Shown: piece by piece, positions 14,639 to 21,257 of the stretch
Layout of the letters: the number at the start of each line of letters is the position of its first letter
Numbering within the stretch: the first letter of the stretch is position 1
Source of the DNA: Kiritimatiellia bacterium
Lineage (GTDB): Bacteria; Verrucomicrobiota; Kiritimatiellia; CAIQIC01; Lenti-01
Assembly (NCBI GenBank): GCA_017527155.1
Contig: JAFXQI010000051.1
Location: 1 to 45,297, forward strand
Direction of reading: 5' to 3'
DNA: 45,297 nucleotides
Notes under the pieces: model-generated
What the model saw: only the letters and a program-made list of their open reading frames with translations
Database searches by the model: none
What the model was told of the DNA's origin: nothing
Made by a program: the position numbers and the translations under genes

Positions 14639-15508
14639 TCAGGAGCAGGCGCCGCAGTGGCTGCAGCCGTTGCAGGTGGGGCGGGAGCCGCAGGTGGCGC
14701 AGGTGTCCCGGAAGGGCCCCGTGCACCGGATGACGGGGTCTGCGAAGAGCGTCGGTTCGGGATGCCGGAGACGGTACTCGATGGGGCGCCCCGGATGGCT
14801 CAGCCCCGAAAGATGCGCCTGGCGGCTCTGGAGGCGCTTGTCCGGCAGATGGTAGGTCTTGCCGTCTTTGACGTAGACGGTGCCGGTTTCGATGAAGTCG
14901 AACTGGACGTCGTGGCGGCGGCACTGCTCCGACAGCGACGCCACCCATTCGTGGTGGCAGGGGCGGGCGCCGTCGTAGTTTTCCCCTCCGCAGAGGACTT
15001 GTTCGAGTAGGCCGGTCGCGAGATGGCGCTCGGCATCGACGGGGCCGATGAGCGGAGCGGCCATGAAGCCGCGGTGCTTGGCGGGGATGCCCAGCAACAG
15101 CGGGAGGCGTTCGTCGGCGCGCGCCTGGTTCTCGGTGGTGACCTGCAGCATGACGTTCTCGTAACCGTCCCCCCAGTCCGGCGGCAGGCAACCGCGGATG
15201 CGGTGGGCGCGCTTGGTCAGGAGCCGGAACGCGACGTCGGGGCGCCGCCGGATGATGTCCCACGCCGCCGGACGCCAGGGATCGGCTTCCTCGACGAAGA
15301 AGTCGGTGGAGAGGCCGACGAAGAGTTCGAGTCCGGCCGGGATCTTCCACCCGCCGCCGCGGGTGCGGGCGAGGGGGAGGTCGAAATTTTGCGTACGGCA
15401 GACGTGCGAGGTGTCGATGCCGCGGCGGGCGTCGAGGGTGTACATGTAGCAGTGGTCGCAGCCTTCGCTGATGCGGTGGCAGCCATGCCAGGGGTTCCAG
15501 ATGATCAT
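14639..15508 (-). CDS. DUF5131 (phage Gp37/Gp68-like) protein with Cys-rich tail
   Basis: A 289-residue member of the DUF5131/Gp37-Gp68 family, which has a radical-SAM-like cysteine motif. The N-terminus reads WNPWHGCHRISEGCDHCYMY, giving Cys10, Cys17 and Cys20 (C-x6-C-x2-C), the spacing typical of the family and likely a [4Fe-4S] site. FRLLTKRAHRI, NVMLQVTTENQARADERLPLL and EQVLCGGENYDGARP are the other family motifs. The last 28 residues add seven cysteines (262, 270, 273, 279, 282, 285, 288), a second likely metal site. The biochemical role of the family is unknown. The start overlaps the stop of the Dtd-GNAT gene by ATGA (15505-15508), so it is the last gene of a three-gene minus-strand operon. 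Confidence 0.88.
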   Translation of the reverse strand: MIIWNPWHGCHRISEGCDHCYMYTLDARRGIDTSHVCRTQNFDLPLARTRGGGWKIPAGLELFVGLSTDFFVEEADPWRPAAWDIIRRRPDVAFRLLTKRAHRIRGCLPPDWGDGYENVMLQVTTENQARADERLPLLLGIPAKHRGFMAAPLIGPVDAERHLATGLLEQVLCGGENYDGARPCHHEWVASLSEQCRRHDVQFDFIETGTVYVKDGKTYHLPDKRLQSRQAHLSGLSHPGRPIEYRLRHPEPTLFADPVIRCTGPFRDTCATCGSRPTCNGCSHCGACS

Positions 15509-16506
15509 GGGGCGAGGCGGCGGGCGTAGACGTAGTCGTCCATGACGAAGCCGCCGCCGATGTCGGTGCAGATGGCCCGGACGCAGGCGAACCCGGCCGC
15601 CTTGTAGGCCTTCTGCGCGCGGACGTTGCCCTTGTTGACGCGCAGCCAGAGGCTCGCGGCGCCGGCGGCGCGGGCGCGGTCCGCCATCCCGTCGAGGAGC
15701 CAGCGGCCGATGCCGCGGCCCCAGTAGGCGGGACGGAGGTAGACCTTGTGGAGCTCGGCGGAGGCGTTTTCGCCGCGCTTGGCGAGGTCGAAGGAGCAGA
15801 TGCCGGCGTCGCGTCCGTCGGCGAGGAGGAGGAAGAAGGGTGAGCCTTCGGCGGTCTCGCGGCGGATGGTCTCCGGGGCGTACATGCGGGAAATCATGTA
15901 GGGAATCTGGGCGTCGGGGATGAGGCCGCGGTAGGTTTCCGGCCAGGACGCTTCGGCCACCGCCCGTGCCCGCGCTTCGCGGTCCGGCGAGTCCACCGGC
16001 AGCAACTCCAGCGCCGGCAGCGGCAGGCGGGGGCGCGGCGAGGAGGACGGCGACGACGCCGTCTCGCTCAGCAGCTCGATCGTGCAGGGACCGTCGTTGA
16101 CCAGCGCGACCCGCATGTCGGCACCGAAGCGGCCCTCGGCGACGCGGTCCGGCCCCAGCAGGGAGCGCAGGTCGGCGGCGAAGCGCTCGCACAGGATGGC
16201 GGCCTTCGCCGGGTCGCCCGCGTGCACGAAGCTCGGGCGGTTGCCCTTGCGCGTGTCGGCGTAGAGGGTGAACTGCGACACCGCCAGCACCGAGCCGCCG
16301 ATGTCCGCCACCGACCGGTTCATGCGCCCGGCGTCGTCCGGGAAGATGCGCAATGCGGCGGCCCGCACCGCCAGGCGGTCGGCGTCTTCGGGCGTGTCCC
16401 CTTCGCGGCAGCCGACGAACGCGAGCAGGCCGGGGCCGATGGCGCCCACGGTTTCGCCGCCGACCTCCACCGAGGCCTCCGCCACCCGCTGGAGCAGCAG
16501 TTTCAT
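15505..16506 (-). CDS. dtd: D-aminoacyl-tRNA deacylase fused to a GNAT acetyltransferase
   Basis: A 333-residue two-domain protein. Residues 1-146 are a complete Dtd: MKLLLQRVAEASVEV, GLLAFVGCREGDT, MNRSVADIGGSVLAVSQFTLYAD with catalytic SQFT (77-80), KGNRPSF, and the chirality-selecting GP motif NDGPCTIEL (137-145). Free Dtd is normally about 145-150 residues and hydrolyses D-amino acids (and glycine) from tRNA. After a Ser/Pro linker (151-165), residues 178-333 form a GNAT domain: WPETYRGLIPDAQIPYMI, VYLRPAYWGRGIGRWLL with the acetyl-CoA loop RGIG (264-267), and LRVNKGNVRAQKAYKAAGF. No frameshift or internal start separates the halves. The gene lies 4 bp after the upstream HTH-like gene and overlaps the DUF5131 gene. 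The acetyl acceptor is unknown; a freed D-amino acid or a tRNA-linked amine are possibilities only. Confidence 0.92.
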   Translation of the reverse strand: MKLLLQRVAEASVEVGGETVGAIGPGLLAFVGCREGDTPEDADRLAVRAAALRIFPDDAGRMNRSVADIGGSVLAVSQFTLYADTRKGNRPSFVHAGDPAKAAILCERFAADLRSLLGPDRVAEGRFGADMRVALVNDGPCTIELLSETASSPSSSPRPRLPLPALELLPVDSPDREARARAVAEASWPETYRGLIPDAQIPYMISRMYAPETIRRETAEGSPFFLLLADGRDAGICSFDLAKRGENASAELHKVYLRPAYWGRGIGRWLLDGMADRARAAGAASLWLRVNKGNVRAQKAYKAAGFACVRAICTDIGGGFVMDDYVYARRLAP

Positions 16507-16510
16507 GCAA

Positions 16511-17218
16511 TCAGAGGGCGGAGAGCGCGATCACGATGGCCTTCAGGCGGTCGGTCATGCGCTTCTTGAGCTGGTACACCGTGTACAGGGCCTTGCCCGT
16601 CTCCGCCGCGACCTGCTTCGGGCGTTTCCCTTCGAGCATGATGCTCGAAAAGACATCCCACGTCGGGCGCCGCCGCGTCGCGTCGTCCAGTTCCAGCAGG
16701 GCGATCTGCGTCTTGGCCACATGCACGTCCCATTGCGCCCGCCAGACCGCCAGCGCGCGCTTGGCCTCTTCCACTTCTTCCTCCGTGAATCCCGTCCAGG
16801 CGAAGTCGCCGTCCCGGATCGTCTCCTTCCGCTCCGCCTTGGCGGCGGGGACCTTCTTGGCGGCGGCGGGCCGGATGGGGGCGGCGGGCGCGGCCGCCTT
16901 GGGGGCCTTGTGGCGCAACACGTCCTGGAGGAAGCGGTTGAAGACCTCGTCCTCGCCGGGATGGTAACGGTAGTGGGGGAGGGCCGAGGCGAGGCCGTCC
17001 AGGAGTTTCCCGATGACGGCTCCCGCGTTCGCGAGGGACGGAACCTCTTCCGCCGCAAATCGTTCCATCATGGGAAGGTAGCGTTCGCCGAGCTGCCGGC
17101 GGGCTTCCTGCCGGGACTCTTCCGCCCGACGGGCCATGGCTGCGGCCCGGGCGGCTACGGCCTTCGACGCGGCCTTCGGCGGGGTCTTCTTTTTCGCGGG
17201 CGATTTCTTCTTCTGCAT
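16511..17218 (-). CDS. Lys/Ala-rich protein with C-terminal HTH-like segment
   Basis: A 235-residue protein with no firm family. The first 35 residues are a basic Lys/Ala/Pro tail (MQKKKSPAKKKTPPKAASK), as in histone-H1-like DNA-binding tails. Residues 40-105 are helical (RRQLGERYLPMMERF, GKLLDGLASALPHYRYHPGEDEVFNRFL), then a second Ala/Lys/Pro linker. The C-terminus (about 150-235) ends in FSSIMLEGKRPKQVAAETGKALYTVYQLKKRMTDRLKAI. This resembles sigma-70 region 4 or similar helix-turn-helix segments in which 'K..Va.e.g.s...V...k.r' marks the turn. A DNA-binding regulator is plausible but unproven. Start 17218 is supported by AAGGAG 8 nt upstream. It is the first gene of the operon with dtd-GNAT and DUF5131. 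Confidence 0.75.
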   Translation of the reverse strand: MQKKKSPAKKKTPPKAASKAVAARAAAMARRAEESRQEARRQLGERYLPMMERFAAEEVPSLANAGAVIGKLLDGLASALPHYRYHPGEDEVFNRFLQDVLRHKAPKAAAPAAPIRPAAAKKVPAAKAERKETIRDGDFAWTGFTEEEVEEAKRALAVWRAQWDVHVAKTQIALLELDDATRRRPTWDVFSSIMLEGKRPKQVAAETGKALYTVYQLKKRMTDRLKAIVIALSAL

Positions 17219-17462: not shown

Positions 17463-20400
17463 ATGCGGAGGTGCAGGATGAATGGATGGTGGCGACAGGC
17501 GGCAGCAGCGGTTTGCGCGGTGCTGGCGGGTACGCTTGCGGCAACGGCGGCGGACGCCCCGGGGGCGGTGTCCATCGATCCGCCGGCGGGGGTGTACCCG
17601 GAGGCGGGGGAGGGAATCGCCGTCACCCTCTCGGCGGCGGAGGGCTGCGCGATCTACTACACGCTCGACGGGTCGCGTCCCGTCTGCACCAACGCCGCCG
17701 GGGAGGTGCTGTGGAGCCCGACGGTGCAGGAGTACACCGGGCCGCTCGCCCTCGCGAACGGCCGCGACGACGGGCCGGACGCCATCAGCCGCATCATGAC
17801 CGGCGCCAACGAGCAGGACATCTACGATCCCTGGTACCCGCCCGCCGAGCCGCCCCGCACCATCCCCGTCCTGCGCGCCGCCGCGGTGGATGCGGAGGGG
17901 CGGGTCGGGCCCATCGCCACGGCCAGCTACCTGCTCGGCTCCATGGCGACGCGCCACGGATCGGCGCCGGTCGTCTCGCTCTGCGCGGAGTGGGCGGACC
18001 TCTTCGACAACGTCAACGGCCCCGGCATCTACCGGCACCCGACGGCGGCCAACAAGTCCAAGGTCCCGAACGCGCACGTGGAGTACTTCGCGGACGGCGC
18101 GCGCCGGGTCGCGAAGTGGTGCGAGCTGCGCGTGCAGGGCACGAGCACGGTGGGCCGCCCCAAGAAGTCGCTCCGCCTGACGGGCTGGAAGGACTACAAC
18201 CCGGTGAAGGGCAAGAAGGACCCGTTCGACCACCCCTTCTTCGCGGACAAGCCCGACGTCCGAAAGCACGCGTGCCTCATCGTGCGGATGGGCGGCAACG
18301 ACTGGAACAAGGCCATCCTGCGCGACCGCCTCGCGGAGCTCCTCCTCGCGGACCCGGAGGTGGAGTGGGAGGCGGGCGCGACGTGCGTGCTCTATCTCGA
18401 CGGCGTCTACTGGGGCGTCCACGAGCTCCGCGAGCGCTACGAATCCGGCTTCTTCAAGAACCAGCTCGGCATCGCCGATTCCGACGCCTTCACGCTGCTC
18501 GAATACGCCGACGGCAAGCCCTTCCCGCAGGTCAACGAAGGCCTTGGCGAGGACGACGAAGAGCGCACGTCCGCCGCATACGCCGACTTCGACGCGATCC
18601 TCCGCCAGCTCGAAGCCTGGGACGACGATCTCTCCGACCCCGCCCGCTGGACATGGTTCACGAACCGGATCAACCCCGACTCCCTCCTCCGCCACTTCGC
18701 CGGCGAACTCTACGCCGGCAACTCCGACTGGCCGCAGAACAACCAGCGCTGGTGGCGCGCCTGGCCGGACGGCGACGCCGGCTCCGCGGTGGACCGCGCC
18801 CGCCCGCGCAACGACGGCCGCTGGAACTGGACCTTCCACGACCTCGACTTCGCGTTCACGCTCCCCTTCGACTACGTCCCCGACCACGCCGACGGCCTCG
18901 GCGCCGCCCACGACCCCTACACCGGCCTCTTCCCCGGCGAAGGCCCCTACGTCGGCGACTGGTTTCCCGACGCCGTCCGCCCCTTCTTCGCGGCCATGAC
19001 GAACCCCGCCTTCCGCGACCGCTACCTCGCGCACCTCCACCTCCGCCTCGCCACCGCCTGGTCCGCCCCGGCCGCCACCGCCGCCCTCGACCGCATCGCC
19101 GCCGAACTCCGCGACGCCGGGATGGACGACAACGGCGCCCGCTGGCGCCAGCCCCAGACCGCGACCGACTTCGACCGGCGCATCGACGACATCCGCCGCT
19201 GGCTCCTCGCCCGCCCCGAAGCCTTCGCCTGGCACACCCGCAAACGCTATGGCCTCGGCCCCCTGCGCGACGTCGCGCTCGCCGCCGGCGGCACCGGATG
19301 CGGCACCATCCGCCTCGCCGGTTCGGACGTGCCTCTCCCCCTCCGCGCAACCTTCCCCAGCGACCTCCCGCTCGAACTCCAGGCCGTGCCCGCGCCCGGC
19401 AACGCCTTCGCCGGATGGTACGCCACCCCCGGCCTCCTCCCGCCCACCGACCCCGCCCCGCGCGCCGCCGACTGCGCCGCCAACTACACCCCCGCCGCCT
19501 CCTTCCCCGCCTCCTCCCTCGGCACCGGCTGGGGCCCGTGGCAGGCCACCTACTACGGCGACGGCACCCGCACCGCCTTCGTCGGCACCTCCGCCATGCC
19601 CCTCCACGGACGCAGCGAAAACGGCACCGCCTTCGCCCTCCGCGCCGGCGACGGCGGCTACGTCACCCTCCTCCGCGAACTCGACGGCGGCTCCGTGCTG
19701 GCCGTCGGCGAAGAAATGTCCATCGACGTCGCCTTCGGCCTCTCCGGCGGCAACGGCGGGGCCGGCGTCGCCTTCATCACCGCGGGCGGCGCCAGCAAAC
19801 CCGTCCAGCTCATCCTCACCGACGAAGGCGGTGAAGGCGAAACCTACCGCCTCCGCATCGCCGGCACCACCTACCTCGCCTCCAACTTCCCGCACATCCC
19901 CGGAATGCCCATCCGCATGACCCTCGCCCACACCGCCGCCGACGCCTGGCAGCTGCGCCTCGCCCGTGGCGACACCACCTACCTCGCCGACGTCGCCCTT
20001 CCCGCCGACACCGCCATCACCGGCGTCCGCCTCTACAAAAACCCCGACCCCGCCCGCCCCGCCGGACCCGCCACCGACCTCCTCTTCGACCGCCTCCGCA
20101 CCGCCCCCGATTCCGGCGCGCCCGACGCCGACGCCACCGTCCCCCTCGACGCCCCCCTCCAGCGCACCACCCTCTTCTACGAAGACGGCGCCTCCTTCGA
20201 CGCCTGGACCCTCGACACCACCGGCTCCGCCGGAGCCTGGCGCAACACCGACCTCCTCTGCAACATCGGCACCCCCTCCTTCGGACTCTGGGCCAACAAC
20301 GGCGGCACCTCCACCCTCCGCCGCCGCTTCGGCTTCGCCCTCGCCACCGGATGCGACCTCTCCTTCTCCTTCCAGAACAACACCCTCGACGACCCCGCCG

Positions 20401-21257
20401 CCTGCGCCGGGGCCATCCTCCTGACCGACACCGGCGAATCCTTCGTCCTCCTCGCCGCCGCCGGCGTGCCTGACTACATGCTGATTCCCGCCGGCACCGG
20501 CACCTCCCTCGACACCGGCATCCCCGTCGTGAAAACCGGCCTCGACGTCACCGTCGCCCCCGCCGCCGACGGCACCCTCGCCGTCACCGTCGCCGGACGC
20601 CCCTTCGCCCTCTCCGCCCCGACCGCCATCTCCGGCATCGAATTCTTCAACTACACCGCCGGTCCCGGCACCCCCTGCAACGTCTACGCCAACCGCGTCT
20701 GGGTCCGCGCCGACCCCGGCGTCTCCCTCTCCTCCCCCGTCCGCGGCAGCGGCTCCCTGAACCGGATGCCCACCTCCGGCACCGGACGCCACCTCCTCTT
20801 CAACGACGCCCCCGGCCCCCTCCTCTCGACCAACACCGTCTTCACCCTCGTCCCGACCAACCCCATCGCCGTGACCGCCCTTTTCGTCCCGCGCGAAGGC
20901 ACCGACTTCGAGATCTGGGCCGCCGACCGCGGCATCGATACCCCGTGGACGACCAACCCGGCCACGGGCCGCGGCTATCCCGAAGAATACCTTCTCGAAA
21001 CCAACGCCGTGGCAACCCTCCACCAGACCCTCCCCGACGGCACCTACGCCCTCTCCTTCACCCCCGGCGACCACGGCATCGCCGCCGACATCCAGGTCAC
21101 CGACACCCTGACCCCGCCCGCCTGGCGCCTCCCCACCTCAGAAGAACTCCCCCCCGTGGAAAGCGCCGAATCCGCCCTCCCCCGCTTCCGTCCCACCCCC
21201 ACCAACACCCCTCCCCGCCTCTTCCTCCGCCTCGTCCTCCGCCCCCTCCCCGAGTAG
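17463..21257 (+). CDS. Large secreted CotH-kinase-family protein with chitobiase-like domain
   Basis: A 1264-residue exported protein. A signal peptide spans about 1-30 (QAAAAVCAVLAGTLAATAADA). A chitobiase/hexosaminidase C-terminal-like domain follows (about 35-165), marked by CAIYYTLDGSRP and IPVLRAAAVDAEGRVGP. The CotH-type kinase fold is at about 165-560: WCELRVQGTSTVGRPKKSLRL, GNDWNKAILRDRLAELLL, YLDGVYWGVHELRERYESGF, and the catalytic-like WTFHDLDFAF with Asp residues near 458-461. CotH proteins phosphorylate secreted proteins in Bacillus and fungi; whether this one is active is untested. The C-terminal 650 residues are Thr/Ser/Gly-rich beta repeats, probably adhesive or glycan-binding, with two similar LamG-like stretches (about 680-885 and 900-1100). 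ATG 17463 fits the promoter geometry; ATG 17478, with GGAGG 6 nt upstream, is the alternative and loses five residues. Confidence 0.9.
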   Translation: MRRCRMNGWWRQAAAAVCAVLAGTLAATAADAPGAVSIDPPAGVYPEAGEGIAVTLSAAEGCAIYYTLDGSRPVCTNAAGEVLWSPTVQEYTGPLALANGRDDGPDAISRIMTGANEQDIYDPWYPPAEPPRTIPVLRAAAVDAEGRVGPIATASYLLGSMATRHGSAPVVSLCAEWADLFDNVNGPGIYRHPTAANKSKVPNAHVEYFADGARRVAKWCELRVQGTSTVGRPKKSLRLTGWKDYNPVKGKKDPFDHPFFADKPDVRKHACLIVRMGGNDWNKAILRDRLAELLLADPEVEWEAGATCVLYLDGVYWGVHELRERYESGFFKNQLGIADSDAFTLLEYADGKPFPQVNEGLGEDDEERTSAAYADFDAILRQLEAWDDDLSDPARWTWFTNRINPDSLLRHFAGELYAGNSDWPQNNQRWWRAWPDGDAGSAVDRARPRNDGRWNWTFHDLDFAFTLPFDYVPDHADGLGAAHDPYTGLFPGEGPYVGDWFPDAVRPFFAAMTNPAFRDRYLAHLHLRLATAWSAPAATAALDRIAAELRDAGMDDNGARWRQPQTATDFDRRIDDIRRWLLARPEAFAWHTRKRYGLGPLRDVALAAGGTGCGTIRLAGSDVPLPLRATFPSDLPLELQAVPAPGNAFAGWYATPGLLPPTDPAPRAADCAANYTPAASFPASSLGTGWGPWQATYYGDGTRTAFVGTSAMPLHGRSENGTAFALRAGDGGYVTLLRELDGGSVLAVGEEMSIDVAFGLSGGNGGAGVAFITAGGASKPVQLILTDEGGEGETYRLRIAGTTYLASNFPHIPGMPIRMTLAHTAADAWQLRLARGDTTYLADVALPADTAITGVRLYKNPDPARPAGPATDLLFDRLRTAPDSGAPDADATVPLDAPLQRTTLFYEDGASFDAWTLDTTGSAGAWRNTDLLCNIGTPSFGLWANNGGTSTLRRRFGFALATGCDLSFSFQNNTLDDPAACAGAILLTDTGESFVLLAAAGVPDYMLIPAGTGTSLDTGIPVVKTGLDVTVAPAADGTLAVTVAGRPFALSAPTAISGIEFFNYTAGPGTPCNVYANRVWVRADPGVSLSSPVRGSGSLNRMPTSGTGRHLLFNDAPGPLLSTNTVFTLVPTNPIAVTALFVPREGTDFEIWAADRGIDTPWTTNPATGRGYPEEYLLETNAVATLHQTLPDGTYALSFTPGDHGIAADIQVTDTLTPPAWRLPTSEELPPVESAESALPRFRPTPTNTPPRLFLRLVLRPLPE

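Follow-up and report, generated by a model that had tools for sequence, protein, structure and literature searches.

A Dtd-GNAT fusion protein in Kiritimatiellae, derived from a pair of neighboring genes and shared between families

The D-aminoacyl-tRNA deacylase Dtd is otherwise, to our knowledge, a stand-alone protein of about 145 to 150 residues, and the locus described here raises the question of what a Dtd joined in frame to a GNAT acetyltransferase does and how such a protein came about. The gene lies in a 45,297-nucleotide stretch of a Kiritimatiellia genome (the window, i.e., all of the DNA analyzed) at positions 15505 to 16506, where an open frame encodes 333 amino acids plus the stop codon. 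The first-pass annotation had placed it correctly and left its strand unstated; it is the minus strand, and the plus strand contains a stop within the same coordinates. The Dtd domain (residues 1 to 148; 16063 to 16506) is followed by a proline-rich linker of the PRLPLP type (residues 149 to 165; 16012 to 16062) and by a GNAT domain (residues 166 to 333; 15508 to 16011), all on the minus strand, as are the three motifs SQFT (residues 77 to 80; 16267 to 16278), NDGPCT (137 to 142; 16081 to 16098), and RGIG (264 to 267; 15706 to 15717). These sit exactly where they had been reported and, with the exception of Cys141 and Ile266, are invariant in an alignment of eight fusions. An AlphaFold2 model of the full fusion as a single chain reached a mean pLDDT of 95.4 and a pTM of 0.91.

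The N-terminal half belongs to the Dtd family, with residues 1 to 145 scoring 154.2 bits against the equivalog TIGR00256 (cut-off, 101.5) and 172.3 bits against PF02580 (cut-off, 25). The modeled half has the DTD fold, matching the structures of the Haemophilus influenzae and Escherichia coli enzymes (1j7g, Z of 25.3 and rmsd of 0.8 over 144 residues; 1jke, Z of 24.8). In Dtd, SQFTL and NXGP(V/F)T motifs form the active site across the dimer (PMC3845328). Here, SQFTL is exact at residues 77 to 81, and the cross-subunit Gly-Pro motif NDGPCT has Cys at the V/F position, while Asn137, Asp138, Gly139, Pro140, and Thr142 are invariant; Arg7 is conserved as well in the eight-fusion alignment. Compared with DTD1 proteins (TIGR00256, PF02580) such as E. 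coli Dtd (1jke; 48% identity over the structural alignment), the whole fold, both motifs, and the domain length are the same, the difference being the C-terminal GNAT, since known DTD1 proteins stand alone. We infer that this half is an active deacylase, which would act as a normal chiral proofreader, a dimer hydrolyzing D-aminoacyl-tRNA and Gly-tRNA(Ala).

The second half belongs to the GNAT family (residues 190 to 306 against PF00583, 55.8 bits; cut-off, 20.7), and its nearest relatives of known function are PaiA-type spermidine/spermine N-acetyltransferases. PaiA (1tiq) was the best PDB match of the GNAT profile (E of 1.7e-17), and the modeled half aligned to 3f0a with a Z of 21.1 and to 1tiq with a Z of 20.4. 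It shares the fold, a putative acetyl-CoA loop, and the conserved Tyr with PaiA-type enzymes (1tiq; Ta0374, 3f0a/3k9u), which are its closest sequence-profile match, but is only 19 to 23% identical to them and differs in having its own C-terminal DIGxGFVMDD motif and in being fused to Dtd. The pyrophosphate loop reads WGRGIG, with Trp at the Q/R position of (Q/R)xxGx(G/A) and with Arg264 and both glycines (Gly265 and Gly267) invariant in the eight fusions. Tyr301 (15604 to 15606, minus strand; alignment column Y136), presumably the general acid of catalysis, does not vary among 22 GNATs, fused and stand-alone. The retention of the RGxG loop and of the usual catalytic Tyr makes it likely that this half binds acetyl-CoA and argues, so far, against the suggestion that it might lack cofactor binding. 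Its substrate is another matter. None of the curated GNAT equivalog cut-offs was reached: the window protein scored 28.3 bits against the PaiA equivalog NF053587 (cut-off, 250), for which relatives gave 27 to 54 bits, and 38.6 bits against TIGR01575 (RimI, the ribosomal S18-alanine N-acetyltransferase; cut-off, 86.4). Falling so far below every cut-off, the GNAT half can be given a substrate class only as a guess. It is probably a PaiA-like, acetyl-CoA-dependent N-acetyltransferase whose acceptor would most likely be a free small amine (a polyamine, an amino acid, or a related compound), and the polyamine acetyltransferases PaiA and Ta0374 as nearest characterized relatives may tilt this slightly away from amino acids.

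To evaluate how widespread the fusion is, we searched 346 Kiritimatiellae genomes, mostly metagenome assembled (G numbers below denote genomes; f and g numbers, family and genus groups). It was found in 17 of them and is full-length in 15, namely, G000, G001, and G003 in f1, the family of the window; G281, G285, G286, and G289 to G295 in f35; and G184 and G185 in f34. The in-frame, full-length proteins of the 14 further genomes are 59 to 97% identical to that of the window. The PRLPLP-type linker occurs in most of the 15, being common to the genus of the window, G003, and most copies of f35 genus g94, while G279 and G280 (f35) have different, longer linkers, G280 being interrupted by a contig end. 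Some of the records point to the ruminant gut (RUG isolates and goat abomasum). Outside Kiritimatiellae, the fusion was found neither in 388 genomes sampled from the phylum (E of 1e-50) nor in 392 from the phylum of a Bacteroidales record (E of 1e-52), cut-offs that could miss a fusion whose GNAT is very different. We also inspected 74 dtd loci that either came from outside Kiritimatiellae or had no relation to the fusion; a weak match to the GNAT profile adjoined dtd in two of them, both times on the opposite strand. Two candidates, G376 and G380, have long open frames around Dtd and were rejected, as the extra open sequence is only upstream. Our search of the open-access literature found no published Dtd-GNAT fusion. 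Two genomes, G276 (C90 and C55) and G166 (C182 and C14), carry two separate Dtd copies each, possibly through contamination or as paralogues.

Such a distribution rules out an assembly or binning artefact. The largely metagenomic origin of the genomes speaks for this explanation, but the same architecture in 15 separately assembled genomes, the family-typical Ddl gene beside the window's copy (see below), and purifying selection on both halves leave it a negligible probability, and a sequencing or assembly error confined to one genome, by which the fusion might have been refuted, can be dismissed. Close pairs gave dN/dS values of 0.02 to 0.09 in both halves, except for a GNAT pair with 0.23; two more distant, less reliable pairs gave 0.16 to 0.21 for Dtd and 0.37 to 0.53 for GNAT. 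The GNAT half is therefore the faster evolving of the two, yet constrained.

The fusion derives from a pair of neighboring genes, since dtd and the GNAT gene adjoin as separate genes in four related genomes of f35 (G277, G282, G283, and G284), overlapping by 4 nt in G277 and separated by 9 nt in G283 and by 20 nt in G282. In G277, G282, and G283, the pair is preceded by hisC-hisB, which was seen wherever the flank sufficed, and followed by an uncharacterized protein and a Methyltransf_32 gene; the fused G279 and G280 have the same downstream neighbor as the unfused pairs. The ancestral order in this family would thus be hisC-hisB-dtd-GNAT. The last two genes presumably became joined when the dtd stop codon was lost, or by a comparable change, and fusion or splitting has occurred more than once. 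The Dtd tree places G279 among unfused copies, and a single clade of all fusions was rejected (p-AU of 0.002), so that there were either two fusions or a single one followed by splitting. The end of the Dtd domain in G279 (SDSQQWHGK) resembles that of the unfused proteins (SDSCAWHKE), which would favor a separate fusion event there. G204 and G288 have detached GNATs, 60 to 61% identical to the fused one and with no adjoining dtd (loci L145, 1498 to 2034, minus strand, in G204, and L146, 1510 to 1995, minus strand). The GNAT of L145 starts with RRPLPRLEL, and this resemblance to the fusion linker suggests that it arose by fission. Most Kiritimatiellae have the two genes unlinked, which, together with the detached GNATs, indicates that coupling is not obligatory. 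A hisB relative also lies beside dtd in gammaproteobacterial loci L064, L098, and L102, on the same strand and directly downstream, as opposed to directly upstream in f35.

The copy in the window was acquired horizontally, to judge from sequence comparisons. Native f1 Dtds make up a clade from which the f1 fusions are absent, these grouping with the fusions of f35 instead, and f1 as one Dtd clade was rejected (p-AU of 0.004). The Ddl gene of the window, about 1 kb from the fusion, is 62 to 66% identical to its counterparts in G003, G004, G006, G009, and G013 (five of the six f1 genomes that gave a long match) and 51% identical to that of G002 (f1), against 42 to 52% for f35 genomes; being f1-like, it shows that the contig is not a misbinned f35 contig. 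In f34 genus g81, the fusion is present in two of four genomes, and the other two gave only a Dtd match, near 1e-40. Where flanks were compared across genera, the fusion alone was shared, bar one weak match of 30%. It is the sole Dtd found in the window's genome and, in all 15 genomes with a full-length copy (those of f1 searched at E of 1e-3), the sole match to Dtd and to the related GNAT, an absence of second copies that carries less weight than it would in finished genomes because these are metagenome assembled. A separate Dtd and a separate GNAT of 34 to 46% identity were found in 9 of 14 other f1 genomes searched. The short-linker fusion then moved into other Kiritimatiellae families, that of the window included, replacing native, separate dtd and GNAT genes.

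As to what the fusion does, the first-pass annotation had described the architecture as unusual, which our analysis supports, and had proposed that the two activities could be coupled. Some functional link is suggested indirectly by the adjacency before fusion, by fusion or fission having occurred more than once, by the joint transfer, and by the replacement of both native genes. We think that two largely independent activities kept together are the most likely reading, the fusion serving mainly, we infer, to keep both enzymes coexpressed and coinherited rather than to channel an intermediate, and that coupled acetylation of D-amino acids is a serious minority reading. The complete proposition, a bifunctional protein of a Dtd proofreader and a PaiA-like GNAT that arose from two fused neighboring genes and later moved between families, seems to us evenly poised. 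Under coupled acetylation, Dtd would free the D-amino acid from tRNA and GNAT would N-acetylate it, blocking its recharging. The adjacency, the repeated events, and the joint replacement of native genes agree with this, and a precedent exists in yeast Hpa3, a GNAT reported to act on free D-amino acids in passages of PMC12273574 that cite Yow 2004 and Sampath 2013, although Hpa3 is eukaryotic and stand-alone and the likeness is a functional analogy only. Against it, we found no sequence signal of D-amino-acid specificity, the nearest characterized GNATs acetylate polyamines, most Kiritimatiellae have their GNAT relatives away from dtd and two genomes have them detached, and the Dtd flux is probably small relative to free D-amino-acid pools, so that linkage would gain little. 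Coupled detoxification is thus unlikely in our estimation, and the wider claim of a two-step disposal enzyme that arose on more than one occasion from adjacent genes and has spread through gut bacteria is to be entertained only tentatively.

The fusion might also be neutral, the GNAT having a job unrelated to Dtd (e.g., polyamine N-acetylation) and a tolerated loss of the stop codon having spread with dtd. Genes that already overlapped or lay 9 to 20 nt apart, a PaiA-like GNAT that is detached in two genomes, and linkers differing in length and sequence are what one would expect in this case, but a pair that has fused or split more than once, a gene order conserved across genera, and constraint on both halves are not, and we regard neutrality as possible but doubtful. 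GNAT toxins that acetylate aminoacyl-tRNA, such as TacT and AtaT, exist, and the fused GNAT could likewise acetylate the alpha-amino group of aminoacyl-tRNA (the first-pass annotation had mentioned a mischarged aminoacyl group), with Dtd as the matching hydrolase or tRNA-binding part. The partner is indeed a tRNA editing enzyme, but no recognizable antitoxin gene adjoins, the neighbors being a DUF5131 gene and a lysine-rich gene (below), there is no PADLOC match in its favor, and in many genomes the stand-alone relatives occur as single genes, all of which makes this very improbable. Hpa2/Hpa3, TacT, and AtaT were absent among the matches listed from the structure and PDB profile searches, which carries no weight either way. 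Whether its activities prove independent, as we favor, or coupled, a conserved, repeatedly formed, and horizontally spread fusion with GNAT departs from the small stand-alone proofreader that Dtd is known as; it suggests that chiral proofreading is followed by a second step, or that tRNA editing is linked in a novel way to the acetylation of small amines, and a single protein offers a direct test case for the coupling of both reactions.

The gene is probably part of an operon, because the upstream gene, an open frame for a lysine-rich protein of 235 amino acids without any Pfam match (16511 to 17218, minus strand), ends 4 nt before the fusion starts, and the downstream DUF5131 gene (14639 to 15508, minus strand; PF07505, 132 bits) overlaps the fusion stop codon in the sequence ATGA. 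The DUF5131 gene, which is probably translationally coupled to the fusion and is also retained next to it in G001, matched the PADLOC candidate models PDC-M30B (86.7 bits) and PDC-M41B (84.6 bits). On the opposite strand, adjoining the putative operon, there is an open frame of 1,264 amino acids (17463 to 21257, plus strand) that looks secreted.
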